From assembly GCA_019694755.1 (NCBI GenBank), contig JAIBBI010000018.1, positions 1-56,562 on the forward strand: a stretch of DNA of 56,562 nucleotides, written 5' to 3'. Shown here piece by piece: positions 23,815-39,200 of this stretch. The notes under the pieces were generated by a model. The model was not told the origin of the DNA. It saw only the letters and a list, made by a program, of their open reading frames with translations, and did no database searches. Numbering within the stretch: position 1 is the first letter of the stretch; each line of letters opens with the position of its first letter. This stretch comes from Gemmataceae bacterium. Lineage in GTDB: Bacteria > Planctomycetota > Planctomycetia > Gemmatales > Gemmataceae. Both the position numbers and the translations under genes were made by a program.

Positions 23815-24267
23815 TCAATGTTTGTGGTGCCGGTGGGAGTGTCTGGTCGGCTTCTGTTCCGCGCCGATGCCGACGATGACGAGTTTCGCCTGATGGATGC
23901 CTTTCAGCCCGCTCAATTCGGCCGCAAGGTGTTCCAGGTCGTGGGCGCTGCCGCGAAGCGCGATCAGTTCCATGCAAAGTTCGTGTGTCAGGTGGACATG
24001 CATCGAGGAGACAACGCAGTTGCCGTGCGAATGCTGGATCTCGATCATCTGATCGGTGAGCCGGGACCGGTGATGGTCGTACACCAGCGTCAGACTGGCC
24101 ACCACGTTTTCCGCGCCGGATTCCCAGGCGTTCGATGTCAGCTTTTCGCGGATGATCTGGCGGACGGCTTCGCTCCGGGTGGCGAACTTTCCGGACGTGC
24201 AGAACCTGTCAAAGTCCTCGAGGAGGTCCGTCTCGATCGACACAGTAAATCGGGCAATCTGCGACAC
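23815..24267 (-). CDS. nikR: Nickel-responsive transcriptional regulator NikR (150 aa)
   Basis: An N-terminal ribbon-helix-helix (RFTVSIETDLLEDFDRFC, then SEAVRQIIREKL) is joined to a C-terminal ACT-like nickel-binding domain. The high-affinity Ni ligands of the E. coli protein are conserved as H79 (IQHSHGN), H90 and H92 (MHVHLTHE) and C98 (ELCME). A His-rich tail (HSHRHHKH) ends the protein. The start is GTG at 24267, with a strong GGGAGGGGAGGG upstream. It should repress nickel uptake genes when nickel is plentiful; the permease operon downstream and the porin diverging from it are natural targets. Confidence 0.95.
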   Translation of the reverse strand: MSQIARFTVSIETDLLEDFDRFCTSGKFATRSEAVRQIIREKLTSNAWESGAENVVASLTLVYDHHRSRLTDQMIEIQHSHGNCVVSSMHVHLTHELCMELIALRGSAHDLEHLAAELSGLKGIHQAKLVIVGIGAEQKPTRHSHRHHKH

Positions 24268-24439
24268 GATGACGCCCTCCCCTCCCGAAAGATCCAGCGG
24301 TGGTGATGTTCTATCTCGGCACTCAAGTGCCGGACTACTTCGACCCGTTTTTCTTTGTCGAAGTCGCGAAAGCCGGCGAATTTACTTGACCGTGGACCGG
24401 CTTTATGCGATGGGGCCGATTCGCGATTGTGGAACGACT

Positions 24440-26149
24440 ATGCAGTTGAAGTCGGCGAGTGCCTGCTCCGCGCGGGGCCGTCTGCCGCTGCCGGGAAAAA
24501 GCCCGGCCGGCTCGCGGTTGTGCCGGCTAGCGTGCGCCGCGGCGGCTTTCTTCGCGGTACTCAGCGCCCCGGGGAGGCTCACGGCTCAAACGCCGGCAAG
24601 TCCGACGACGCCGGTTTCTTATTCCACGATGTCGCTCGACCAGATTGCCGAGCGGCTCCGAGCCATGGAGGAGCTGAACCGCAAGCTGGCCGGGCAACTC
24701 GAAGCCAACAGTCGGGAACACGCCGAGCAGCTGAGCCAACTCCGCGACCGTTACGCGGAACTGTCGCGACGTCTCGAGGGGCGGCCCGCGACCGCGGAAG
24801 CCAACGAGGCGACAGCGAATGTGGCACCAGGGGAGTCGGCATCGCCGGTGCCGGACTACACCGAGGGCAGCTTTACGCCATTTGCGCCAGCGCCCGGCTA
24901 CCCGGCCTCGAACATGTTCACCGGCAGCCGGTTTCCGCTGACGGCCTCGTTCGGCCCGGGCTTCCGCCTTCAGAGCGAAAAGGGCGACTTCAGCCTAAAC
25001 ATTCACTATGAATCGCAGGTCGAGTATCGCAACTGGTCGCAGGACCAGTTGCCGGCCAACGACGGATTCTTCCTGCCCCGGCAGCGGATCTTCTTCGACG
25101 GCAACCTCACGAAGACGATCGAATACGAGTTCGCGATCAATCGCGGATTGAACAACATCAACCTGCTGAACGCGTACTTGAACTTTCACTTCGACGACCG
25201 CCTGCAGCTTCGCATGGGCCGGTTCTTCACGCCCCTGCCCTACGAACAGTATGCCGTCTCGAACTACTGGCTGCTCACGCCCGAACGCTCGGTGTTTACG
25301 TCTAATCTCAGCTTGAACCGGCAAGTCGGGGCCATGGCCTGGGGCTACCTGTTCGACGAGCAACTCGACTACGCGGCCGGGGTGTTCAACGGCTCGCGAA
25401 ACTCGTTCGAGAGCTTGAACAACTCGGTGGATTTCGTGGGCTACCTGAACGCCCGACCGTTCCAGAAATCCGACACGTTTCAGTTCGCGAAGTTCTGGAA
25501 CGTCGGAACTTCCGTCGCCTACGGGCGGCAGGATCAGTCGCCCGTACCCGTAACGTTCCGCATTGCCGGCGGTTCACCGGACACGAACATCCCGGGCCCG
25601 GCTACGACGCCGTTTCTTGTACTCAACAACGACGTCACCGAGCGCGGCGAGCGCGTCGTCGGGTCGGTTCACTCAGCGTACTTCTACAAGTCGCTTTCGC
25701 TACTGGCCGAATGGCAGTACGGATTCGGCAACTACGCGTCGCCCGCGCAGCCGGATGCCGTCCGCGTCCCTTATTCGGGCTTCTATGTGGCAGGCGGCTA
25801 CTTTCTGACCGGGGAAGAGATCGAGCGGCGAACCCGCCTGAAGCCGCTCCGGCCACTGATCCCCGTGAAGTCGGACGAGCAGCGCGGCATCGGCGCGTGG
25901 GAATTCGCCGGTCGGGTCGCGCAGTTGAAACTCGGCGATGAAGTGTTTCAGGCGGGCTTTGCCGACGCCAACACCTGGTCCAACTCCGTCGTCACGACGG
26001 AACTCGGCGTGAACTGGTATTGGAACGAGTACATCAAGATGTACATGTTCTGGTTGCACGGTGATTTCGGCGACCCGGTCCAGTTTCGACCGGGACAGTT
26101 TCAGAAGTCGGCCGACATGCTTTGGCTCCGGTGTCAGCTCTACTTCTAA
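24440..26149 (+). CDS. OprP/OprO-type outer-membrane porin (569 aa)
   Basis: A signal peptide (CRLACAAAAFFAVLSAPGRL, cleavage near TAQTP) is followed by a coiled coil (residues about 60-110, with RAMEELNRKLAGQLEANSRE) and a phosphate-selective porin O/P family barrel (FFLPRQRIFFDGNLTKTIEY; LRMGRFFTPLPYEQYAVSN), ending in aromatic LRCQLYF as outer-membrane barrels do. The ATG at 24440 is preceded by GGAA; the frame is open to 24152 but that part overlaps nikR and is not porin-like. It diverges from nikR and is followed by the urease genes, so nickel or urea passage through the outer membrane is a fair guess. The family name does not prove phosphate transport. Confidence 0.87.
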   Translation: MQLKSASACSARGRLPLPGKSPAGSRLCRLACAAAAFFAVLSAPGRLTAQTPASPTTPVSYSTMSLDQIAERLRAMEELNRKLAGQLEANSREHAEQLSQLRDRYAELSRRLEGRPATAEANEATANVAPGESASPVPDYTEGSFTPFAPAPGYPASNMFTGSRFPLTASFGPGFRLQSEKGDFSLNIHYESQVEYRNWSQDQLPANDGFFLPRQRIFFDGNLTKTIEYEFAINRGLNNINLLNAYLNFHFDDRLQLRMGRFFTPLPYEQYAVSNYWLLTPERSVFTSNLSLNRQVGAMAWGYLFDEQLDYAAGVFNGSRNSFESLNNSVDFVGYLNARPFQKSDTFQFAKFWNVGTSVAYGRQDQSPVPVTFRIAGGSPDTNIPGPATTPFLVLNNDVTERGERVVGSVHSAYFYKSLSLLAEWQYGFGNYASPAQPDAVRVPYSGFYVAGGYFLTGEEIERRTRLKPLRPLIPVKSDEQRGIGAWEFAGRVAQLKLGDEVFQAGFADANTWSNSVVTTELGVNWYWNEYIKMYMFWLHGDFGDPVQFRPGQFQKSADMLWLRCQLYF

Positions 26150-26213
26150 CCTTCATCATTCCGTTTCCGGCTGACCGGAGAATCTGGACGGAATTTGTTC
26201 TCATGTAATTCTC

Positions 26214-26256
26214 GTCGATACTTGCTTTGCATCGACAAACGACTATCGTCTATTAT
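26214..26256 (+). promoter_or_regulatory. Palindrome and possible promoter upstream of the urease region
   Basis: A perfect inverted repeat GTCGAT-N11-ATCGAC (26214-26236) lies in the 232-nt gap between the porin and the exported NTF2-like protein. TTGCAT (26227-26232) and TATTAT (26251-26256), 18 nt apart, form a fair sigma-70 promoter overlapping its right arm. The repeat does not look like the NikR site, so a different regulator is likely if it is functional. Confidence 0.4.
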
Positions 26257-26381
26257 GACTAGCAGCGATGGTTTCAATTTGTCGGCAGTTCGTCGGCAGA
26301 AACCAGGGGCCGCCTCCCGTTCTTCCAGGTCGGCCCTGCAACTGCTTACGGTCGACAGTTCTTCCGGAGCCTACATCCATC

Positions 26382-26975
26382 ATGTCAATTCACAATCGTA
26401 CTTCGCGCCGCAACTTCCTCGCCATCGCGGGTTTCGCCGTTGCGGCTGCTATCATCGCAACGCTGGGCTCCCCGGCGCACGACGGGAAGAAGCCGATCAC
26501 CGAAGCCGAGGTCAATGCGGCCCAGCAGGCGTGGTGTGATGGTCTCGTCAAGATTGGCAAGGTGTACGCCGAGGGTGGCGACTACCGGGCGACAGCCGGC
26601 AAGATCATCGACGAAGCGTACGACTACGCCGATGGCAAAGTGTTCTTCAAGCCGACGCTCGCCTCAGGCAAGGACACCTTCCGCCCGACCCGCGCCGGTG
26701 CGTTGGCATACTTCGTCGGTGGCGACCCGAACTTCCCGAAAGACACCGGATTCGCGCTCAAGAAATGGGTCAAAGTCACTTACGACAACAACGCCTCCGA
26801 GAATGGCATTCAGATTCACGGCGATATCGCGATCACGATGGGCAACGTCTTCCTGACGAACTCAAAGGGTGACGAGGTCATGGTCGACAAGACCTTTGTG
26901 TTCCGCCGATGTGCCGACGGCAAACTGCGCTTGTGCGTTCACAAGTCTGCCCTGCCGTTCGATCCCTCCAAGTAG
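26382..26975 (+). CDS. Exported NTF2/SnoaL-like protein at the urease locus (197 aa)
   Basis: The N-terminus (MSIHNRTSRRNFLAIAGFAV) looks like a Tat signal: SRRNFL followed by a hydrophobic stretch ending in Ala. The mature part (EAEVNAAQQAWCDGLVKIGK, later FKPTLASGKDTFRPTRAGAL) has the long helix and beta sheet of an NTF2-like fold, with a paired Cys late in the protein (FRRCADGKLRLCVH). I do not recognise an activity. It lies 56 nt before the urea channel gene in the same direction, so it is probably co-transcribed and acts outside the inner membrane. Confidence 0.75.
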   Translation: MSIHNRTSRRNFLAIAGFAVAAAIIATLGSPAHDGKKPITEAEVNAAQQAWCDGLVKIGKVYAEGGDYRATAGKIIDEAYDYADGKVFFKPTLASGKDTFRPTRAGALAYFVGGDPNFPKDTGFALKKWVKVTYDNNASENGIQIHGDIAITMGNVFLTNSKGDEVMVDKTFVFRRCADGKLRLCVHKSALPFDPSK

Positions 26976-27031
26976 AAGATCGGCCCCGGCTCGGTTTCGG
27001 CAGGCCCTCGGTCCCAGGGAGGCAGTGCGCG

Positions 27032-27985
27032 ATGTCGAAGGTGGATGCCAGCGTCTCCAACCCAATCGGTCCAGATATCGTCACGGCGATATTCCGGGGG
27101 ATTGGTCAGGTCTTCTTCCAGGAAAACGCGATCACGGGCGGGCTATTCACGCTCGGCATCGCGCTGAGTTCGCCGGTCATGGCCCTCGGCCTCGTGATCG
27201 GATCGGCTCTCGGCACGGTCGTGGCCTGTTTTCTCGGGTTCGACCGCAAAGAGACGGCCGGAGGCATTTACGGATTCAACTCGGCCCTCGTCGGGATCGC
27301 GACATTCTTCTTCTTCCAGCCGGGCGTTGTCAGCATCTGCCTACTGATCGTGGGCAGTATCCTGGCGGCCCCGCTGACTCGACTGATGCGAAGTTCGGTC
27401 CCGTTCCCGACCTACACCTCACCGTTCATCCTGATCACCTGGTGCCTGTTTTTCCTCGGGCAGTCGTTGGGGGCGGCATCGACCGACCCGTCGGTCGGGC
27501 CGCTGGTCGCGAACGCCCCGACGGGGCACGTCTTCGAGTCGACCATGCATGGCGTCGGCCAGGTCATGTTTCAGGCCAGCATCTGGACCGGCATCCTGTT
27601 CCTCGTCGGCATCGGCATCAGCGATTGGCGGCACGCCGCGTGGGTCGCGGCCGGCGCGTACGTCGGAATGCTGGTGGCGGGATACCACCTCACCGGGGCG
27701 GCGAAGTCGCTCGACCCGGAACGCCTGATCGAGCGGAGCATGTTTACGAACATCTCGCTCGGGCTCTACGGCTATAACGCGACACTCGCGCCGGTCGCTT
27801 TGTTCCTCTGGCGGCGGAAACTGATACCGGCGATCCTCGGCATGCTGCTGACGGTTCCGCTGACGGAAATGGTGCCCTACCTGGGCCTCCCGGCCCTCAC
27901 TTTGCCGTTCGTGCTGGCCACCTGGCTGGTCCTCGCGTTCGGCTGGCTCGAGCAGAAGTACCTCGGCGACTCGCCCAGGTCTTGA
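27032..27985 (+). CDS. Urea channel/transporter, UT family (317 aa)
   Basis: This is an integral membrane protein of the UT (SLC14-like) urea channel family. The two halves of the internal repeat are visible as [19 protein letters not shown] with [13 protein letters not shown], and [17 protein letters not shown] with [15 protein letters not shown] strong AGGGAGG site precedes the ATG at 27032; the frame is open upstream to 26909 but that overlaps the previous gene. It should let urea cross the inner membrane to reach the cytoplasmic urease encoded directly downstream (31-nt gap to ureA). Confidence 0.92.
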
Positions 27986-28016
27986 ACGATTCCAACCCGG
28001 AAATGGAGCGACATCC

Positions 28017-28319
28017 ATGAACCTGTCTCCGCAGGAACGCGACAAACTGCTGATATTCACGGCCGCCCAGGTGGCGCGGGCCCGCAAGGATCGCGGCGTG
28101 AAGCTCAACGTGCCGGAAGCGACGGCACTGATCACAGCCGAGTTGATGGAAATGGCCCGCGACGGCAAAACCGTCGCCCACATCATGAGTGCGGGACGCG
28201 AGATCCTGAAGCGCAAGGACGTCATGGAAGGCGTGCCGGAGATGATCTCGATGATCCAGGTCGAGCCGACCTTCCCCGACGGCAGCAAGCTGGTCACCGT
28301 TCACGATCCGATCCAGTAA
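28017..28319 (+). CDS. ureA: Urease gamma subunit (100 aa)
   Basis: Full-length Ure[21 protein letters not shown] at the start, [20 protein letters not shown] in the middle and [19 protein letters not shown] near the end, at the standard length of 100 residues. It forms the cytoplasmic (UreABC)3 enzyme with the next two gene products, hydrolysing urea to ammonia and carbamate. A terminator-like hairpin follows immediately, before ureB. Confidence 0.97.
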
Positions 28320-28324
28320 CCCCG

Positions 28325-28347
28325 GGCGCCGCAACGCGGCGCCTTTT
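28325..28347 (+). terminator. Intrinsic-terminator-like hairpin between ureA and ureB
   Basis: A perfect 8-bp GC stem (GGCGCCGC / GCGGCGCC, loop AAC) is followed by TTTT, 5 nt after the ureA stop. It could reduce read-through or protect the upstream mRNA end. ureB follows 16 nt later with its own GGGAGG site. Confidence 0.6.
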
Positions 28348-28363
28348 CCAGGGAGGCGAGACA

Positions 28364-28741
28364 ATGATTCCGGGCGAGTACATTTTCGACGGTCAGGACA
28401 TTGAACTCAACGCCGGTCGCCCCGTGGTGACGATCAGCGTGAACAACACCGGCGACCGACCGGTGCAGATCGGAGCCCACTACCACTTTTTCGAAGTCAA
28501 CAAGGCGCTGGTCTTCGACCGTGTGAAGGCCTACGGCATGCGGCTCGACCTTCCGAGCGGCACGGCCGCCCGCTTCGAGCCGGGCGAGGTGAAAGAGGTG
28601 AACCTGATTCCGTACGGCGGCCAGCGGGTCGTCTTCGGATTCAACGGTCTGGTCATGGGTCGCCTCGACGACCCGTACACCCGCGACGCCAGCATCAAGC
28701 GTTGCATGGATCAGAAGTACGGCCACAAGCCGTCGAAGTAA
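28364..28741 (+). CDS. ureB: Urease beta subunit (125 aa)
   Basis: UreB is recognised from [19 protein letters not shown], the core [19 protein letters not shown], and [18 protein letters not shown]. The length is normal for a separate beta subunit with a short C-terminal extension. It is non-catalytic and packs against UreC. A good GGGAGG ribosome site lies upstream, and 44 nt separate it from ureC. Confidence 0.97.
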
Positions 28742-28785
28742 CCCTCACCGCCCCCACTACCCGGACACACGAAAGGCAGCCATCC

Positions 28786-30507
28786 ATGAGCGTGAAGATC
28801 GCGCGGAAAGCCTACGCGAAGAAATACGGGCCCACCAAAGGCGACCGCATCCGGCTCGCCGACACCGAACTCTTCATTGAGATCGAGCGGGACTACACCG
28901 AGTACGGCGAAGAGGCCATCTTCGGCGGCGGTAAGTCGATCCGCGACGGCCAGGCCCAGTGCCCGCTCCACGAGCCGATGAGCCCGGAGCACTGCGACCT
29001 CGTCATCACCAACGTGATCATCATCGATCACTGGGGCATCGTCAAAGGCGACATCGGCGTCCGCAAGGGCCGGATCGTCGCCGTCGGAAAGTCGGGCAAC
29101 CCGTTGACTCAGTGCGGCGTTGACCCCCGTCTCGTCATCGGGCCGAACACCGACGTGATCGCCGGCGAAAACCGCATCTGCGTCGCCGGCGGCATCGACA
29201 CCCACATTCACTTCATCTGCCCGCAGCAGATCGACGTGGCCATCGCCTCGGGAATCACCACCCTCATCGGCGGCGGCACCGGCTCCTCGACCGGCACCTG
29301 GGCCACAACCTGCTCGCCCGGCCCCTGGTACATCATGCGGATGCTCCAGGCCTTCGAGGCGCTGCCGATCAATGTCGGCATCATGGGCAAGGGTAACAGC
29401 AGCCTGCCGAAGCCCCTCCGCGACATGATTACGGCCGGCGCGTGCGCCCTGAAGCTCCACGAAGACTGGGGCACGACCCTCCAGTGCATTGACACCGCGC
29501 TGTCCGTCGCCGACGACATGGACATCCAGATCGCGATCCACACCGACACGCTGAACGAGTGCGGATTCATCGACGACACGATCGCCGCGATCGCCGGCCG
29601 GACCATTCACAGCTTCCACACCGAAGGCGCGGGCGGCGGCCATGCCCCGGACATCATGAAAATCGCGGGCCAGCCCAATGTGCTGCCCGCCAGTACCAAT
29701 CCGACCCGGCCGTTCACGGTCAACACCATCGATGAGCACCTCGACATGCTCATGGTGTGCCACCACCTCTCGCGGAACATCCCCGAAGACGTGGCCTTCG
29801 CCGAGAGCCGGATCCGGGCCGAGACCATTGGTGCGGAGGACGTGTTCCACGACCGCGGCATCATCAGCATCATGAGCTCCGACTCGCAGGCCATGGGCCG
29901 GATCGGCGAGGCCATCCTCCGGACCTGGCAGACCGCGCACAAGATGAAGGTGCAGTTCGGCCCGCTGGCGGGAGACAGCTCGCGGAACGACAACGAACGG
30001 GTCAAGCGGTACGTGGCCAAGTACACCATCAACCCGGCCATTGCCCACGGCATCGCCAATCACGTCGGCAGCATCGAGGGCGGCAAGCTGGCCGACCTCG
30101 TCCTCTACGACGCGAATCAGTTCGGCGTCAAGCCGTTCCTCATCGTCAAGGGCGGTATGATCGTGCAGGCCCAGATGGGTGATGCCAATGCCAGCATCGC
30201 GACCCCGCAGCCCGTTTACATGCGGCCGCAGTTCGCGTCCTACGGCGGGGCCCTCTCCGGTTCGTGCCTCTCCTTCGTGTCGAAGGCGGCCGTGCAGGCC
30301 GGCGTCGCGGCCGAGTACGGCCTGCAGCGCGAAGTCGTCGCGGTCGAAAACTGCCGGAAGATCGGCAAGAAGGACATGAAGCGAAACGAAGCCACCCCGG
30401 ACATCAAGATCAACGCAGACACCTACGAGGTCACGGTGGACGGGCAGAAGGTTCACAGCGAGCCGATGAAGGAACTGCCGATGACCCAGCGGTATTTCCT
30501 GTTCTAA
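28786..30507 (+). CDS. ureC: Urease alpha (catalytic) subunit (573 aa)
   Basis: A complete UreC. Nickel ligands by position are H140 and H142 (GGIDTHIHF), the carbamylated lysine K223 ([10 protein letters not shown]), H252 ([10 protein letters not shown]), H278 ([10 protein letters not shown]) and D366 ([10 protein letters not shown]). The active-site flap has the Cys-His pair C325/H326 (MVCHHLSRN). I start at the ATG at 28786 ([15 protein letters not shown]), preceded by GAAAGG; the frame is open to 28702 but that part lies in ureB. All catalytic residues are present, so the enzyme should be active once loaded with nickel by UreDFG. A strong terminator-like hairpin follows. Confidence 0.98.
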
Positions 30508-30517
30508 TCGTCACTCG

Positions 30518-30558
30518 TCGGATGGGAGGGCGGGCAGCCGTCCTCCCATCCGATTTTT
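30518..30558 (+). terminator. Strong intrinsic terminator between ureC and ureF
   Basis: A 12-bp perfect stem (TCGGATGGGAGG with CCTCCCATCCGA), extended by one G-T pair and an inner CGG/CCG, encloses a GCAG loop and is followed by five T residues (30554-30558). It begins 11 nt after the ureC stop. The ureF start is 12 nt beyond the T-run, with no clear ribosome site, so accessory gene expression probably depends on read-through or another promoter. Confidence 0.8.
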
Positions 30559-30569
30559 GTTTCGACACC

Positions 30570-31253
30570 ATGATGATCAACGTGCGACTTCTGCAGATCA
30601 CCGATTCGGCGCTCCCGATCGGCGGCTACATGCATTCGTGGGGTTTGGAGACGGCGATCGCCCGCCGGATCGTCCACGACCCAGAGACGCTCGAACGATT
30701 CACGGCCCGCTGGCTGACGACGTCGCTCGGACCGATGGAGGGCGTCTTCGCGGCATCCAGTTGTCGGGCCGCCCTAGCCGGTTCGATCGAAGACGTTCTG
30801 TCTATCAATGAGAAAGCGGAAGCGTCGATCGTCGCCTCAACCATCCGCGGCGCGAGCCGGGAGATGGGTGAGCAACTCGTCGCATTAGGATCGACCTGGG
30901 GCTGGAGCGCGGCCGGGCTCGCGCCCTATCTGTCAGGGCCGCAAGGGGAACACGGCTGGCACCACTGCGTCGCCTTCGGGTTGCTCGGGGCATTAGCGGG
31001 GGCCGACCCCCAGACCGTGGTCACTGCGTTTCTCCACCAGGCCGCCCTCGGCATGATCGGCGCGGGCGTCCGAGCCATCCCGGTCGGGCACACGCACGGG
31101 CAACAGGTGCTCGCCTACATTCACGACGAACTCCGCACGCTGGTCGACGGCATCAAGGACCGCGCCCCGGAATCGGCCGGCAGCGGCTGCCCCTTCTACG
31201 AGGTACTCTGCGATGAACAAACTCGCCTTTATGCTCGCATGTTCCGCTGCTGA
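30570..31253 (+). CDS. ureF: Urease accessory protein UreF (227 aa)
   Basis: UreF is recognised from [21 protein letters not shown] at the start (the conserved D-S-x-P-x-G-x-x-x-x-S-x-G-x-E) and [20 protein letters not shown] near the end. It forms the UreDFG chaperone complex that delivers nickel to UreC and gates GTP hydrolysis by UreG. The ATG at 30570 fits the family; a second ATG follows directly. The frame is open upstream through ureC and the terminator, which is not coding. Its last 41 nt overlap ureG in another frame. Confidence 0.93.
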
Positions 31254-32004
31254 AAGGCAGTATCACCATCTGGAGCGGAGCCCGGTCGCGGGCCGGGGAG
31301 CGTTGCTCGGGCCGGCGTTTCACAAAGACCACGATCATCCGTCCGGGTATGGCGGCCAGCCGGGCCCCGCGCGGTATGCCGGGCCGAAGCGCAAGGTGTT
31401 CACGCTCGGCGTGGCCGGCCCAGTCGGCTCCGGCAAGACCGCGATGGTCGAGATGCTCTGCAGGGAACTGTGGCCCGCGATCAACCTCGCCGTCATCACC
31501 AACGACATCTACACCCACGAAGATGCCGAGTTCCTCTCGCGCCGCGAGGTCATCCCGCTCGAGCGGATCGTCGGCGTGCAGACCGGTGGCTGCCCGCACA
31601 CGGCCATCCGGGACGACGCCAGCGCGAACCTGAGTGCAGTCGCCAACTTCCAGCGGCAGATTCCGGACCTCGAAATGGTCCTGGTCGAATCGGGCGGTGA
31701 CAACCTCACCGCGGTCTTCTCCCGCGAGTTGGCCGACCGTTTCATCTTCGTCATCGACGTGGCCGAGGGGGACAAGATTCCCCGCAAGGGAGGACCGGGG
31801 ATTTGCAACAGCGACCTGCTCGTCATCAACAAGACCGACCTCGCGCCGCACGTGGGGGCCGATCTGGAAGTCATGCGGCGGGACAGCCTGAAGATGCGGG
31901 GCGAGCGCCCGTTTCTGATGACCAGCCTCCGCCAGAAGGAGGGAATCGCGGAGGTGGTCCAGTGGGTCCGCGAGCAGTTGGCATCACACGCCAAGACCTC
32001 GTAA
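31213..32004 (+). CDS. ureG: Urease accessory GTPase UreG with His-containing N-terminal extension (263 aa)
   Basis: The GTPase core starts near residue 62: P-loop [13 protein letters not shown] (67-79), [14 protein letters not shown], the nickel-binding Cys-Pro-His in [11 protein letters not shown] (127-129), ESGGDNLTA and [13 protein letters not shown]. Compared with ordinary UreG (about 200-210 aa) there is an N-terminal extension of about 60 residues with HH at 18-19 and a cluster [13 protein letters not shown] at 36-48. GAGGT lies about 10 nt before the ATG, which supports this start although it overlaps ureF by 41 nt. The extension may act as a nickel store, as in HypB or UreE; that is inference. 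Confidence 0.93.
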
Positions 32005-32960
32005 CTCCTCCCGAATTCCAGTCGCTCCACCTGGCCGACCAGGTGGCCGGGCGGATCGGCGGTGCGGACATCGAACTCGTCCGCGTCGGCGAAGAAACCC
32101 GGCTCGGCGCGTGTTACCAGCAGATCCCCATGCGGATCATGCCGGCCTTTTCGTTCGATGACGAGCCGGCCGCGCTGCTCTACATGATCACGCTCACTAC
32201 CGGCCTGATGGACGGCGACGGCCATCGATTCCAGGTGAAGTCGCGGCCCGGCACCCGGGCCGTGCTCACGGGGCAATCAGCTTCGCGCGTCCACCCCGCG
32301 CCGGTCGCTTACTCTACCCAGCAGTGGGACGTGAACGTCGAGGACGACGCGATTCTCGTCGTGCTGCCGGGCCCGACCATTCCTTATGCCGGCAGCCGTT
32401 TCTACCAGCGGGCCCGCGTGCAACTCGCGCCGACCGGTCGCCTGATCTGGGGCGACATCTGGCACCCGGGCAGGTACGACCGTGGCGAACTCTCCGAACG
32501 GTTTCAGTTCAACCGGATCGTTCAGGACTTCGAAGCGCGGCGCGGCGACCGACTCGTCTATCGCGACCGCTTCTGCTGGAACGGGCCGTGGAACCCGAGC
32601 GACGTCGACTGGTATCTCGGCGGCCACCTGGCGACGGCGAGCCTGTTCGTGGCCGGCCCCCTGCCCGACGTGATGCCGGAACCGGTCGCCTCCGTGCGGC
32701 GGTCGGTGTTCCGTCTCGATACGGGCGAATCTTGTCTGCGCTGGTGCGGGTCGCCCCACGCCGTGACGGCCGACCTCGTGGCGGTCACTATGCGAGTCGC
32801 GGCCAGTTGGACGGGCGGGCCGGGCAGCCGGCCCTGGCTGATCAACTCTTCGGACCTGGCGCCGAATCACTGGTTTTCAATCCAGCCGGAAACGGACGAT
32901 GGCGGCACATCGAGTGCCGCCATCGCAAGTAAGATTCCGGCGATTCCACTTAAAACTTGA
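31962..32960 (+). CDS. ureD: Urease accessory protein UreD/UreH (332 aa)
   Basis: UreD features: [50 protein letters not shown], the conserved [19 protein letters not shown] and [18 protein letters not shown]. No ATG fits the family N-terminus. A GTG at 31962 is directly preceded by GGAGGTGG and gives [11 protein letters not shown]..., so I take it as the start, 43 nt inside ureG. UreD scaffolds UreF and UreG on the apo-urease. The last residues (about 305-332) are encoded across a perfect terminator-like hairpin, and the stop overlaps the end of the converging porin gene by 11 nt. Confidence 0.88.
32897..32925. terminator. Bidirectional terminator-like hairpin inside the ureD 3' end
   Basis: A perfect 12-bp inverted repeat (CGATGGCGGCAC / GTGCCGCCATCG, loop ATCGA) lies within the last 64 nt of ureD and just beyond the stop of the convergent porin gene. 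It could end transcription from both sides although neither side has a T-run. Confidence 0.6.
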
Positions 32961-34302
32961 GCAGAGCGCTGACGACGCCGGTGAGCTGACTGCGGTCGTT
33001 CGGGTTGCCACCCCCGCCGAACGCAGGCCGGTCGGCAAAGTCACCGCGGATTTCGGGCCGGACTTCGAGGAACTGGTTGGGGTGCCAGTTCAAACCGAAG
33101 GTCACTTCCGAATACTGGGCGTCGATACCGGTCCGCGTGCCGTCGGCGTCATTGAACCATTCCAGCCGCATCTGGGTGTCCCACGTCGGGTTCAGGTGAA
33201 GAATGCCGACGGTGTAGAGGCCGTACCACGCACCGGTGCCGACCGGTGTATTGGTATCCCAGCCCATGTTGGTCTGAATGATCTGGGTGAAGCACTCCGT
33301 CCAGTTCTGTTGCAACCGCAGTTCCACGATCGTAGCGAAGTCGCCGTTCATGCCGGGGGCGGCAAAGATCGCGTCCGGGCCACAGTGAAGTGACGCCGTC
33401 AGCCGGGTGCGCTTTTCGGCCGTCAGCCAGTAGTCAACCTGGCCGATGTAGCAGATCGAGTTGCTGCTCCGCTTCTCGAAAAACGTATTGGCCCCGAGCG
33501 TCATGCCGTTCCAGATGTCGAGCTGATCGGAGACGTGCAGGTTGGTCAGGAAGCCGGTGAACGCACCGTCCTGCGAGTAGAAGAACTGGTAATCGCTGGA
33601 ATAGAACGGGCGGTACGGGGCGAGGAAGCCGTTATAGCCGATGATGGTGTTCATCCGGCCGACCTTGATGTCCATACCCTTTTCGGTCAGGATCGGCAGG
33701 TGGGCCGAGATGTACAGGTCGCGGAAGTCCTGGCTGAACCGCGAATTGCCCGGAGGCGAATCGATGCCGCCGAGCGGTTGGCCAAGCGCGGCATCGGCAC
33801 CGGCGAAGTACCGGATGTTGAAGCCGATGTCGAATCGGTCCTGCTGGAGGGGCTTCTGAATCACGAGGCCGATCTGATTCAGCAGGAACTCGTTGCCGTA
33901 CCTGTTCTGACGTGGTTGGACCGACAGCAGGCCGCTACCCGACGACGAAGCAGTGTATCCACCTTCCAACCACCCGAAGGCCCGGATGCCGCTGTCGCCG
34001 AAGATGTACTTCAGGCCGAGGTTGTCCATGAGGAACCGAACCTGGTCGACCGGCGTCGCGCCAAATGTCGCGGGCGAAGCCGGGGAGGCGATATCTTCGG
34101 CCAACTCACCGGGCAGCGAGTGCGATTGCAGGCCCGACGCCGGTCCCATGGCGATGTCGTTGACGTTGGTCAGGTACAGCGGTTGTTCGGACCCGACAGG
34201 AGCCGGCGCCGGGGTCGGGAGGGCCCCGTTCTGGGCGAAGACGTTGATCGCACCGCCGAGTAACACCGCGAGGCTATTGCCAAACCGTTTGGACAGGAAC
34301 AT
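32950..34302 (-). CDS. BBP2/OmpL-like outer-membrane beta-barrel porin (450 aa)
   Basis: A signal peptide (NSLAVLLGGAINVFAQNG) precedes a barrel of the putative beta-barrel porin-2 family (GIRAFGWLEGGYTASSSGSG; LPILTEKGMDIKVGRMNTI; FYSSDYQFFYSQDGAFTGFL), and the protein ends in a phenylalanine ([11 protein letters not shown]) as outer-membrane barrels do. The ATG at 34302 has GAGGAG about 15 nt upstream; the frame is open to 34830 but that part is antisense to the bestrophin gene. Planctomycetes carry several such porins; the substrate is unknown. Its end overlaps ureD by 11 nt. Confidence 0.88.
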   Translation of the reverse strand: MFLSKRFGNSLAVLLGGAINVFAQNGALPTPAPAPVGSEQPLYLTNVNDIAMGPASGLQSHSLPGELAEDIASPASPATFGATPVDQVRFLMDNLGLKYIFGDSGIRAFGWLEGGYTASSSGSGLLSVQPRQNRYGNEFLLNQIGLVIQKPLQQDRFDIGFNIRYFAGADAALGQPLGGIDSPPGNSRFSQDFRDLYISAHLPILTEKGMDIKVGRMNTIIGYNGFLAPYRPFYSSDYQFFYSQDGAFTGFLTNLHVSDQLDIWNGMTLGANTFFEKRSSNSICYIGQVDYWLTAEKRTRLTASLHCGPDAIFAAPGMNGDFATIVELRLQQNWTECFTQIIQTNMGWDTNTPVGTGAWYGLYTVGILHLNPTWDTQMRLEWFNDADGTRTGIDAQYSEVTFGLNWHPNQFLEVRPEIRGDFADRPAFGGGGNPNDRSQLTGVVSALLKF

Positions 34303-34650
34303 ATTGGCCGAACTCCTCAACTGACGGGGGGGGCACCCGGAATCGGCGCATCCTTGCGCCGACGATGCGGTACCGGTGGGGTCGTGCTGACAGGATCGGC
34401 CGGACCGCCTGACGCGAATAAGCAGCGGGCACGGGAATGAACCGACCTGTCGATCGCCCGGTTCGAGTCGGATCACGTAGGTAATCTGGGTTGAGAATGC
34501 AGGCGCAACAATCGATGCCACTTGGAGCTTGAGTCGATTATTGAATTCTCTTGCAAGACGTCGTAGCCAATGATGGAGTATGCCGACCGCGTCGACTCTG
34601 CCAACAAGTGCAGGTCGAGCCCGAACCCGCAGGATACCGAGCAGCGGATC
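34303..34650. other. Divergent intergenic region with a 5'-UTR hairpin
   Basis: It separates the porin (minus) and bestrophin (plus) genes, so both promoters should lie here. A perfect 8-bp stem (TCGGCGCA / TGCGCCGA, loop TCCT, 34343-34362) lies about 40 nt upstream of the porin start, probably in its leader. I cannot point to a convincing promoter for either gene. In-frame ATGs at 34570 and 34573 are alternative, less likely starts for the bestrophin gene. Confidence 0.5.
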
Positions 34651-35583
34651 ATGAGTGTCCAGCCACGACTGGGATTCTGGCGCGAGTCGTTTGCCATTGA
34701 AGGGTCCGTGCTGCCGGTCGTTCTGACTCAGGTACTCATTTTCGGTTTGATCGCGCTGGCCATCTGCTTGCTGACCTGGTTCGTGGAATCCTGTTACTCG
34801 ACCCGACTGGGCCTCGAGGTCACGCCGCACGAGCTATCCGGAGCCGCGCTCGGCCTGCTGCTCGTGTTCCGCACCAACTCCGGGTACGACCGCTGGTGGG
34901 AAGCGCGGAAACTCTGGGGTGGATTCGTAGACCGGACTCGGAACTTCGTGATCGGCGCACTGGCGTACGGCCCACGCGATCCGGACTGGCAGAGGGAAGT
35001 CGTGCTCTGGACGGCCGCCTATCCTTACGTCGCCAAACACGCTCTGCGCCGCGAGAAGCTCGGCCCAAATGTCACGGCCCTGCTGGGCGTTCAGAATGCC
35101 CAACGAGTTGGCCAAGCCGAACACATGCCGGCATACGTCGCCCGTCATCTCGCTGACCTGCTCCGCGTCGCCTGCGAGCAGCACGGCATGGACAGGCGGG
35201 CCTTCCAGCAGGTCGACCGCGAAAGGGCACTCCTCATCGACAACTTCGGCGGTTGCGAGCGCATCCTGAACACGCCCCTGCCGCGCTCTTACTCAATCAA
35301 GATCCGGCAATTCATCATCCTGTTCCTGCTGACGCTGCCGCTCGCCCTGCTTCATCGGCTCAGCAACGACTGGCTCGTGCCGCTGATCACCATGTTCGTC
35401 GCTTATCCGCTGCTCGCCCTAGATCAACTCGGCGTCGAACTGGAGAACCCGTTCTCTACGGACAACCTCAGCCATTTGCCACTGGAAGGAATTGCCAACA
35501 CCATTGAAGGCAATGTCCTCGGCTTGCTGGCCTCCGAGTCTGCCCGTGCCAAATCAACGTCCCTTCCCAACACAACGGAATGA
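34651..35583 (+). CDS. Bestrophin-like (UPF0187) ion channel (310 aa)
   Basis: A bacterial bestrophin-family membrane protein. Conserved parts are GFWRESFAIEGSVLP (residues 7-21), LLVFRTNSGYDRWWEARKLW (about 70-89), LPRSYSIKIRQFIILFLL and the late VELENPFSTDNLSHLPLEGI. Bacterial members form pentameric ion channels in the inner membrane. Family members begin near this MSVQPRLGFW, so I chose 34651 although the frame extends 27 codons upstream. The VanZ-like gene follows 4 nt after the stop. Confidence 0.9.
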   Translation: MSVQPRLGFWRESFAIEGSVLPVVLTQVLIFGLIALAICLLTWFVESCYSTRLGLEVTPHELSGAALGLLLVFRTNSGYDRWWEARKLWGGFVDRTRNFVIGALAYGPRDPDWQREVVLWTAAYPYVAKHALRREKLGPNVTALLGVQNAQRVGQAEHMPAYVARHLADLLRVACEQHGMDRRAFQQVDRERALLIDNFGGCERILNTPLPRSYSIKIRQFIILFLLTLPLALLHRLSNDWLVPLITMFVAYPLLALDQLGVELENPFSTDNLSHLPLEGIANTIEGNVLGLLASESARAKSTSLPNTTE

Positions 35584-35587
35584 TCCT

Positions 35588-36022
35588 TTGAACGACGTTC
35601 ACCCCTGGGCCCCGAAGCCTCGCAGCAATTTGCGGACGATCCTGCCGTTTGCGGTGTTCCTGTTCTTCCTCGGCCTCTGGACGTGGGAATTACTGGCCGA
35701 GAAGCCCGTACCTGATTCCATCATGCGGCTCATCCCCGTCGCCTGGCGATTCTGGCTGGCCAAAGGGCTGCACGTCGGCGGCTATGCGTTCCTCACGGTG
35801 CTGGCCGCGTTTCTTCCCGTCAATCGGCTTTATTTCTGGCTTGTGATTGGCGGCCTCGTTGCGCACGGACTCGCTACCGAACTCGGCCAGACATTCGTCA
35901 ACGGCCGGACCGGCTCGTTCCGCGACGTACTGCTCGACTGGGCCGGCATCGGCCTGGGAGTCGCCGCCGTGCTGATTTTCGATCGGATTCGACAAGGCGG
36001 AAGCCGCAACCGTCGAATCTGA
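35588..36022 (+). CDS. VanZ-like membrane protein (144 aa)
   Basis: Four hydrophobic segments and the VanZ-family polar motifs (LAKGLHVGGYAFLTVL; HGLATELGQTFVNGRTGSFRDVLLDWAG) are present. No suitable ATG exists: the only ones in frame lie inside the bestrophin gene. A TTG at 35588 just after the bestrophin stop, with GGAA about 10 nt upstream, is the best start. VanZ proteins were named from glycopeptide resistance, but most homologs have unknown roles. Translation is probably coupled to the upstream channel gene. Confidence 0.75.
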   Translation: MNDVHPWAPKPRSNLRTILPFAVFLFFLGLWTWELLAEKPVPDSIMRLIPVAWRFWLAKGLHVGGYAFLTVLAAFLPVNRLYFWLVIGGLVAHGLATELGQTFVNGRTGSFRDVLLDWAGIGLGVAAVLIFDRIRQGGSRNRRI

Positions 36023-36231
36023 ATCGACCGTGCAACGTGGGGAACCGTTGCGGCCCCGAGTTTCCATTGGCCTCCGGCAATCATTGAGATCACCGCCTTG
36101 CCCCTTCACATTTGAAAGTAGTCGGGTTGTAGCGGCTGCGTAAGCGGGGAGTTATCACGCAGACAGTCACTTTCCACAGTCCGGCATGTACGATATTTGT
36201 GTTTTCCGGACTCCATTCGGGTAAGGCTCCC

Positions 36232-39200
36232 ATGAATTTTTCCAGCTGGTTTGTCGGGGTAATGCTGGCTTTTTCCCCGACACAGGACGCTTCGAGCAAG
36301 GCCGGATCCGACGCGGAAAGGAAGGGCCACCCCATGGCCGGGTTGCGACTGCGGTCGCTGGGGCCGGCCCTGATGTCGGGCCGGGTCGTCGGCTTTGCCG
36401 TTCACCCTGAGAACCGCAGCCGGTACTTCGCAGCTGTCGCCTCCGGCGGCGTATGGAAAACCGACAACGCCGGTGTCTCCTGGAAGCCTGTATTTGACGG
36501 CGAAGGCTCATACTCCATCGGCTGCATCACGATGGACCCGAAGAACCCCAACGTGCTCTGGGTCGGCACCGGCGAGAACAACAGCCAGCGCAGCGTCGGC
36601 TACGGCGACGGTGTTTACAAGTCCGTCGACGGCGGTCGAAGTTGGACCAACGTCGGCCTCAAGTCGTCCGAACACATCGCGAAGATCGTGATCGACCCGC
36701 GTGATTCGGACACTGTTTATGTCGCCGCGCAGGGCCCGCTCTGGGGGCCGGGCGGCGATCGTGGGCTCTTCAAGACCACGGACGGCGGGAAGACCTGGTC
36801 CCGCATATTGTTCATCAACGACGACACAGGCGTTACCAACATTGTGCAGGATCCCCGCGACCCGAACACGATGATCGCGGCATCGTATCAGCGGCGACGG
36901 CACGTATTCACGCTCGTTAACGGCGGGCCGGATTGCGGCATCCACCGAACAACCGATGGCGGCAAAACGTGGACGAAAGTCCGCGCGGGGCTGCCGACCG
37001 CGGACATGGGACGGATCGGGCTGGCGATGGCCCCGACGGACCCCGACACGATCTACGCCATCATCGAGGCGACCGACAAACAGGGCGGCATCTTCTGCTC
37101 CCGCGACCGTGGCGTGACGTGGGACAAACGGAACAGCTTCGATCAGCAGGCCCAGTACTATTCGCACATCGTCGTCGACCCCGAAAACAAGGACCGGTTC
37201 TATGTGATGAACGTCCTGATCCAGGTTTCCGACGACGGCGGCCGGACACTGAAGCCACTCGGCGGCCGCTGGGCCCATGTGGATTACCACGAGATCTGGG
37301 TCGATCCCACGAACCCGAACCATTACCGCGTCGGCTGCGACGGCGGAATCTACGAAAGTTTCGACCGGGCGGCGAACTGGCGGCACATCGCCAACCTGCC
37401 CGTCACGCAGTTTTACGACATTACCTGCGAGCAGACCGATACGCCGTTTTATAAGGTGTACGGCGGGACACAGGACAACAATACTCTCGGTGGCCCGGCC
37501 CGCACCCGCGACCAGGGGATCACGAACTCCGACTGGCAAGTAATCGTGGGCGGCGACGGGTTTCATTGCCGGGTCGATCCGCAGGACCCCGATACGGTCT
37601 ATGCCGAGTACCAGTACGCCGGGCTGATCCGGTACGACTGGAAGACCGGCACACGCGTTCCCATCCAGCCTCAGCCGGGCGCGGGTGAACCGCCCCTGCG
37701 CTGGAACTGGGACAGCCCGCTTATCATCAGCCCCCACTCCCATAAGAGGCTGTACTTCGCGGCGAACAAACTGTTCCGCAGCGACGATCGCGGCGACTCG
37801 TGGAAGGCCATTTCCGGCGACCTCACCCGGCAGCTCAACCGTGATCATCTGCCCGTCATGGGCAAAATCCAGCCGCCGGAAGCGGTTTCCAAGCACGTCT
37901 CCACCTCCTTCTTCGGCAACATCACCGCGCTTTCCGAATCGCCGAAAAAGGAGGGACTGATCTATGTCGGCACCGACGACGGACTGGTGCAGGTCACCGA
38001 AGACGGCGGCAAGAACTGGCGGCGCGTCGACCTGTTTCCGGGCGTCCCGGAAGGGACGTACGTGGCTCGCCTGCTGGCCTCGCAGCACGACGCGACAACG
38101 GTCTATGCCGCGTTCGACAATCACAAGAACGCCGATTTCGCGCCTTACCTGCTGAAGAGCACAGACGCGGGTCGGACTTGGACGAAACAGATGGGCGACC
38201 TGCCGGCCCGGGGCAGCGTGTACTCGATCGCCGAGGATCACGTGAACCCGAACCTTCTATTCGCGGGCACCGAGTTCGCACTCTATTTCACCACCGATGG
38301 GGGGCAGAAGTGGCATCGACTCCGCGGGCTGCCCACGATCAGTGTCCGAGACCTCGCCATCCAGAAGCCCATGAACGATCTGGTGATCGGCACCTTCGGC
38401 CGGGGCTTCTACGTACTCGACGACTATTCGCCGCTGCGGACGGCGACGCCCGAGACGCTGGCGAAATCGGCGGCCATCTTCCCGGTGCGCGACGGATTCC
38501 TGTACATGCCTACGACTCGCTTCGGCGGCGGCGGCAAGGCGTTTCTCGGCGAGGCGTTTTACGCGGCCGACAACCCGCCTTTCGGCGCGACGATCACTTA
38601 TCATCTGAAGGATTCCCTGCCGACGCTGAAGCAGAAGCGTAAGGACTCGCCGAAGAAGGATGCAGCCAGTTACCCGACCCAGGACCAGTTGCGGGCCGAG
38701 GCCGAGGAAGAAGAACCGGCCGTGCTGATGACCATCAGTGCGAGCGACGGCACGCCCCTGCGCGTGATCAACGTCCCGGGCACGGCGGGCATTCACCGCG
38801 TCTCGTGGGACCTTCGTCTTCCGGCGGCCAACCTGCCGCGAGTGCGAAACACGGAAGGCGACGACGACTTCTTCGGCTTCACGCCCGGCGGTCCGTACGT
38901 GGCTCCGGGAAAGTACCAGGTGACCCTATCAAAGCGAGTCCGCGGTGAAGTGACGCCTCTGGCGGGGCCGGTGGAGTTTCAGGTCAGGTATGTCGGGCCC
39001 GCACCGCTGCCCGCTGGCGACTGGAAACAACTCGCCGAGTTTCAGAAGCAGATTGTCAAGCTGCAGCGCGATTTGACGACGGCCCAGGGGACCGCTTCGG
39101 ATATCTCAAACCGCCTCGATGCGATCAAGGTCGCGTTGGACATCACGCCGACCGCGACGCCGGAAAGCCGGGTGCAGGTTCGCAAGCTGATCGAAGAGCA

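Follow-up and report, generated by a model that had tools for sequence, protein, structure and literature searches.

The 62-nt gap (30508-30569) between the urease genes ureC and ureF of a Gemmataceae bacterium carries a hairpin with the anatomy of a strong intrinsic terminator. We consider it probable (about 0.6) that this hairpin acts as a partial (leaky) terminator within the urease operon, ending most of the ureABC transcripts while a fraction continues into ureFGD. Terminators of this kind are known, and the hairpin is a good example, ordinary in kind; the part worth following is the recurrence of breaks at the ureC-ureF junction.

The stretch of DNA analyzed (56,562 nucleotides, hereafter the window) is an entire contig of a genome whose 335 contigs total 5,635,884 bases, with a GC content of 64% in the part of this genome that was sampled. 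The urea transporter gene, ureA, ureB, ureC, the hairpin, ureF, ureG and ureD follow each other in this order, all on the plus strand and with Pfam support for every gene. The gene starts used in the scripts come from a simple caller and not from an annotation. The features are:

27032-27985, plus strand: urea transporter gene, in an ORF spanning 26909-27985 (Pfam PF03253 UT, E 8e-57; start 27032 chosen by the script caller)
28017-28319, plus strand: ureA, gamma subunit (Pfam PF00547, E 6e-46)
28364-28741, plus strand: ureB, beta subunit (Pfam PF00699, E 1e-43)
28786-30507, plus strand: ureC, alpha subunit (Pfam PF00449 and PF01979; stop TAA at 30505-30507; start chosen by the script caller)
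30517-30533, plus strand: 5′ arm of the putative terminator stem (stem scan and folding)
30534-30537, plus strand: loop GCAG (sequence and folding)
30538-30554, plus strand: 3′ arm of the putative terminator stem (stem scan and folding; T30554 forms the outer G·U wobble with G30517)
30554-30562, plus strand: T tract TTTTTGTTT (eight of nine bases are T)
30570-31253, plus strand: ureF, first chaperone gene (Pfam PF01730, E 7e-32; start ATG at 30570, alternative 30573; no SD-like site upstream)
31213-32004, plus strand: ureG (Pfam PF02492 cobW/HypB/UreG, E 3e-36)
31962-32960, plus strand: ureD, within an ORF spanning 31803-32960 (Pfam PF01774, E 1e-37; start from the script caller)

The three genes ureFGD are required for active urease. 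The urease cluster is bordered on its two sides by predicted porins of the outer membrane (Porin_O_P and BBP2; 24629-26149 and 32950-34302); a role of these porins in taking up urea or nickel is no more than a guess.

The hairpin combines: (i) a GC-rich uninterrupted stem (17 pairs, 11 G-C and two G·U) closed by a loop of four bases, within the range of 3-8 of intrinsic terminators, (ii) a U-rich tract directly 3′ of the stem and (iii) a sense orientation 3′ of a stop codon. From the outside inwards, the stem consists of one G·U, 12 Watson-Crick, one G·U and three G-C pairs. The T tract runs over 30554-30558, then comes a G followed by TTT, so that seven of the nine bases 3′ of the 17-pair stem are T. 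The distance is 9 nt from the ureC stop codon to the hairpin and 15 nt from the hairpin to the ureF start. An initial annotation of this DNA had reported the 62-nt gap, 12 perfect pairs plus inner pairs, the GCAG loop and five T residues; all of these proved right, the gap lying exactly between the TAA and the ATG, the full stem being longer and the five T belonging to a longer T-rich tract. The element is strand-specific, since the T tract is found only on the ureC sense side: RNA from the other strand lacks a T tail, and its inner stem is broken by an A·C mismatch in place of the inner G·U pair. With the formula of d'Aubenton-Carafa, the terminator score d is +46 or +57 depending on the chosen stem end, which designates a strong intrinsic terminator. 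When 201 nt of context are folded, the hairpin is also preserved, in the predicted minimum-energy and centroid structures alike.

This hairpin is real and beyond chance. When the gap was shuffled 3,000 times at the mononucleotide level, the longest stem obtained had 15 pairs compared to the 17 observed, and none of 200 dinucleotide shuffles folds as stably (z = -5.44). A generic terminator scan of 24000-38000 found 12 sites compared to 11.2 in shuffles (sd 3.3), a class that is not above chance, within which the ureC-ureF site stands out with 17 pairs compared to nine for the runner-up. The part of the genome that was sampled (568,600 bases) contains 58 stems without mismatches (G·U allowed) that have at least 12 pairs (35 of them inside predicted genes), 16 with at least 14 and seven with at least 16, the present hairpin being one of these seven. 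A search of the whole genome on both strands with an 81-bp query (E < 1e-3) retrieved only the hairpin itself (next row, E 1.38), and a two-arm pattern with up to four mismatches found only the window's own copy in the 568,600 sampled bases. Since no second copy exists in the genome, a repeat or mobile palindrome is ruled out. A palindrome devoid of function, arisen by chance or by insertion, has precedents in the same gap of relatives, where the hairpin is an interspersed repeat in G245 and repeat-like in G191; with its single copy, its position far outside the shuffles and its sense-side T tract, the hairpin of the window is extremely improbable as such an element.

Strong hairpins cluster at the 3′ ends of genes in the sampled part of this genome. 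Among gaps of 40-260 nt, those scoring at least 12 are found in 7/14 convergent, 12/89 tandem and 1/25 divergent gaps, compared to none, one and none, respectively, in shuffled gaps; the sums over six sampled genomes are 19/67, 35/279 and 2/53, and these background counts, like those of the folds given below, include the ure gaps present in the sampled DNA. The 12 tandem 3′-end hairpins of the window's genome have on average 3.25 T in the next nine bases compared to 2.00 on the other side, and the mean is 1.55 for 168 hairpins within genes. Some of the other genomes sampled show less of this enrichment for their tandem hairpins, or none (G183: 1.43 on the sense side, 3.00 on the other). The window's tail, with seven T, ties for the best of the 12 with a hairpin of contig 137 of the same genome (L154, 9508-9542). 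The latter is a terminator-like hairpin in a tandem gap; its tail is TTTTTTT, and only 5 nt separate it from the predicted gene that follows. Given this habit and the anatomy of the hairpin, an intrinsic terminator is the reading that we retain. However, the genome also encodes Rho (two matches over the cut-off), so that other routes to 3′ ends exist, which we counted against the partial terminator.

The ureC-ureF (C-F) junction was compared with the ureA-ureB (A-B) and ureB-ureC (B-C) junctions in related genomes, after searches for ureC in 95 genomes from the window's own family (10 matches, E ≤ 1e-100), 45 genomes of a second family (18 matches, E ≤ 1e-240) and a class-wide draw of 397 genomes (48 matches, E ≤ 1e-50). 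The gap counts cover 28 of 31 loci: G260 and G396, which have no ureF beside ureC, and G057, whose ureC lies in two frames, were left out, G251 and G115 were counted for A-B and B-C but not C-F, and G191b contributed only to C-F. The ureC found at a contig end in G003 and a second urease type (about 54% identity) lie outside the sample. In G057 (L129, L014), ureC is split by an internal stop into two overlapping frames, and the genome also carries another ureC, with an identity of about 54%.

With a score defined as the number of pairs less two per mismatch, stems of at least 10 were found in 6/26 C-F gaps compared to 0/27 for both A-B and B-C (Fisher p = 0.0008, only a guide since the loci are related); in the window itself, the A-B gap holds a stem of nine pairs, under this cut-off. 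This count misses the bulged stems of G149, G112, G173 and G191b, which are visible only in fold counts. Among gaps of at least 40 nt, folds with z ≤ -3 were found in 7/15 C-F gaps compared to 0/19 A-B and 0/19 B-C gaps (p 4e-5), and in 5/13 compared to 0/38 once the two repeat-derived cases are removed (p 0.0005); neither G149 (z -1.6) nor G112 (z -0.5) has a significant fold. Background gaps reach this threshold in 43/279 tandem and 27/67 convergent cases (summed rows; for pairs of minus-strand genes, it is the plus strand of the gap that was folded). The comparison of 5/13 with the tandem background (p 0.045) weakly suggests that a long C-F gap resembles the end of an operon more than its interior.

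The terminator itself is not conserved: the C-F gap is at most 14 nt in 11 of the 26 relatives, which leaves no room for one. Of the six C-F stems scored, only that of the window has a positive d, the others having -29 (G019), -15 (G245), -8 (G135), -7 (G158) and -23 (G183). The sequences of these hairpins differ between genera, and even those of two sisters, G019 and the window's genome (G000), fail to align as a single element. In G158 and G183, which belong to the same genus, the hairpin is homologous, with identical 9-nt arms in gaps that are mostly different; the gap of G158 (247 nt) also holds a second stem of 15 pairs. No second copies were found for the hairpins of G000, G019, G183 (with its G158 homologue) and G135. 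The hairpin in the C-F gap of G245 (L227, 3694-3790), with a stem of 28 pairs, is a palindromic repeat interspersed in that genome (of 343 candidates, about 40 were scored, which gave 80 match rows on the two strands), and the hairpin of G191b is repeat-like (five further rows at four places). Therefore, not every C-F hairpin was selected for a terminator role. The proposal that all C-F hairpins of relatives are terminators is weakened by these two cases and by the five negative scores.

The tails of these stems bear on another explanation, namely that the whole operon is transcribed, that RNase clears the ureFGD mRNA faster and that the hairpin blocks 3′-5′ exonucleases, the T tract being incidental. 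Such protection has a precedent in E. coli (PMC5927463, in its available text) and agrees with the few T in the next nine bases of the stems of G019 (1), G245 (1), G158 (3) and G183 (2), as expected from it. We nevertheless judge it unlikely for the window, whose tail of seven T is strong and on the sense side only, in a genome where runs of at least five T are rare (about 0.21 per kb per strand in the sampled part); the tail of G135 is also fairly T-rich (6/9).

According to the UreC tree, four of the five earliest-branching rows have tight junctions and the fifth, G236, has a 50-nt gap without hairpin. Hairpin-state changes number at least three for non-repeat hairpins only, five with the two repeats and six with the doubtful G149, on a tree in which 7/27 inner branches are weak. 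In addition, ureC and ureF are separated by 1.6 kb in G251 and by 4.4 kb in G115. The intervening DNA of G115 (L236) includes a second gene for a urea transporter, encoded on the opposite strand. Taken together, these comparisons suggest that the ureC-ureF junction is a recurrent weak point that tolerates, and perhaps favours, breaks, the terminator itself being local. Various devices would be found at this junction: a putative terminator in the window's genome, and U-tract-less hairpins, repeat insertions and physical splits in relatives. That hairpins or inserted DNA were gained repeatedly because of a selection for an excess of urease over its chaperones, where the tight ureC-ureF linkage was lost, is a tentative and rather doubtful proposal.

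The best 80 of at least 589 ureC loci from wider phyla were surveyed for stems within 90 nt of a stop codon. Stems of at least 12 were found after 2/78 ureC, 1/73 ureA, 0/75 ureB, 1/53 ureF, 1/20 ureD and 0/8 ureG genes, and a cut-off of 10 gave nine, three, one, four, two and none, respectively. A ureF match beginning at most 150 nt from ureC was found in none of the 79 loci counted among these 80. These results suggest no strong general rule of hairpins after ureC outside the group.

If the hairpin is a partial terminator, polymerases that have transcribed ureA, ureB and ureC would meet a GC-rich hairpin formed just after the ureC stop codon, and the U tract 3′ of it would release most of them. 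A minority would read through and allow ureF, ureG and ureD to be made, so that the mRNA of the enzyme would exceed that of the nickel-insertion chaperones; the hairpin could also shield the 3′ end of the ureABC mRNA. From sequence features we infer that termination takes place and how efficient it is, that ureFGD mRNA arises by read-through and that the arrangement serves stoichiometry. The terminating ribosome could hinder the hairpin, which starts so close to the stop codon. Chaperones are presumably needed in smaller amounts than the urease enzyme, according to the established view.

Read-through is the proposed source of ureFGD mRNA because the hairpin lies only 15 nt from ureF and a scan for sigma-70 sites near ureF found none, although the promoters of this group may differ. 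A complete terminator would make ureABC and ureFGD separate units and would need a promoter hidden inside the end of ureC; read-through is a simpler source. Such a division would fit the physical separation seen in G251 and in G115, where the opposite-strand transporter gene intervenes, and the gap of G158 has room for a promoter; considering the missing sigma-70 site (with the same caution about promoters) and the short hairpin-start distance, we regard it as quite unlikely in the window. The initial annotation had also pointed out that ureF lacks a clear ribosome site. This is correct, and ordinary in this genome, in which 125 of 218 sampled ATG starts (those of the simple script caller) are likewise devoid of an SD-like motif. 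A role of the T tract as a start signal of ureF is disfavoured, since T is not enriched before start codons (0.15-0.18 at positions -20 to -1).

The same annotation proposed that the enzyme genes may be expressed in excess over the chaperone genes or that read-through may be regulated. The first part stands as an expectation: the terminator anatomy and its exact position at the boundary of the enzyme and chaperone genes suggest an excess of ureABC mRNA. The second part found no support in the window. An attenuator whose read-through would be altered by nickel, urea or nitrogen status, through an antiterminator or an RNA-binding protein, draws only on the position of the hairpin and on an analogy with the pH-dependent control of H. 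pylori urease genes (as outlined in a review, in its available part). No riboswitch or other known regulatory RNA from Rfam was found at or near the gap. The only match in the whole window lies antisense within ureC: RF02514 (5′ureB antisense sRNA, 71.1 bits, above the gathering score), at 28968-29239 on the minus strand. The 11 other ureC loci compared (11/11) also match RF02514, which makes this RNA uninformative as a rival regulator; its score may largely reflect the conserved coding sequence of ureC. Furthermore, no alternative structure was found in the minimum-energy and centroid structures of the 201-nt fold, in which the hairpin is intact, and the closest relative does not share the sequence of the hairpin. 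A regulated attenuator is thus very unlikely.

If the partial terminator works as read, the urease operon of the window would be a compact natural case of stoichiometry set through partial termination, and its relatives would provide natural variants: tight linkage, a hairpin without U tract, a repeat insertion and a physical split. This work also documents hairpins with T tails at the ends of genes in a GC-rich group where termination data seem scarce. A survey of terminators left out Planctomyces for want of good RNA-seq and describes terminators devoid of U as common in some bacteria, including M. tuberculosis (PMC8355165, available text). In a comparison of several species, whose median loop was four in every case, the terminator hairpins of Streptomyces were the longest and most stable (PMC12207403), and strong terminators are reported to raise the stability of upstream mRNA (PMC11696848). 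A search of the open-access literature, outside which most subscription papers lie, found no title or abstract on a ureC-ureF terminator or on the transcription of planctomycete urease operons.

Several known systems can be compared with this junction. Partial terminators within operons are exemplified by the rplL-rpoB attenuator. The putative terminator of the window shares with intrinsic terminators within operons a GC-rich stem, a short loop, a sense-side U tract and a place between genes of unequal expected need; it differs in separating urease enzyme genes from chaperone genes. The REP-like interspersed palindromes are likewise palindromic intergenic hairpins, and the hairpin of G245 at the same junction is of this sort; they have many copies in a genome, whereas the hairpin of the window is single-copy. 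In E. coli, differential decay reshapes at least 12% of operons, and 26 of 34 stabilized upstream parts end just past a stable hairpin without U tract (PMC5927463, available text, in which malEFG is an example and puf is named in the reference list). The protective intercistronic hairpins of malEFG and puf resemble that of the window as stable hairpins between genes that favour the upstream mRNA; unlike it, they carry no U tract. In H. pylori, ureAB is expressed apart from ureIEFGH, with three transcripts (review, part available). The window would share with this split the presence of urease enzyme and accessory genes as separable expression units. However, H. pylori relies on two transcription units and on mRNA decay, the latter being reportedly involved in the control of its urease genes (judging by the title of Akada 2000), whereas an intrinsic terminator is the likely device in the window.
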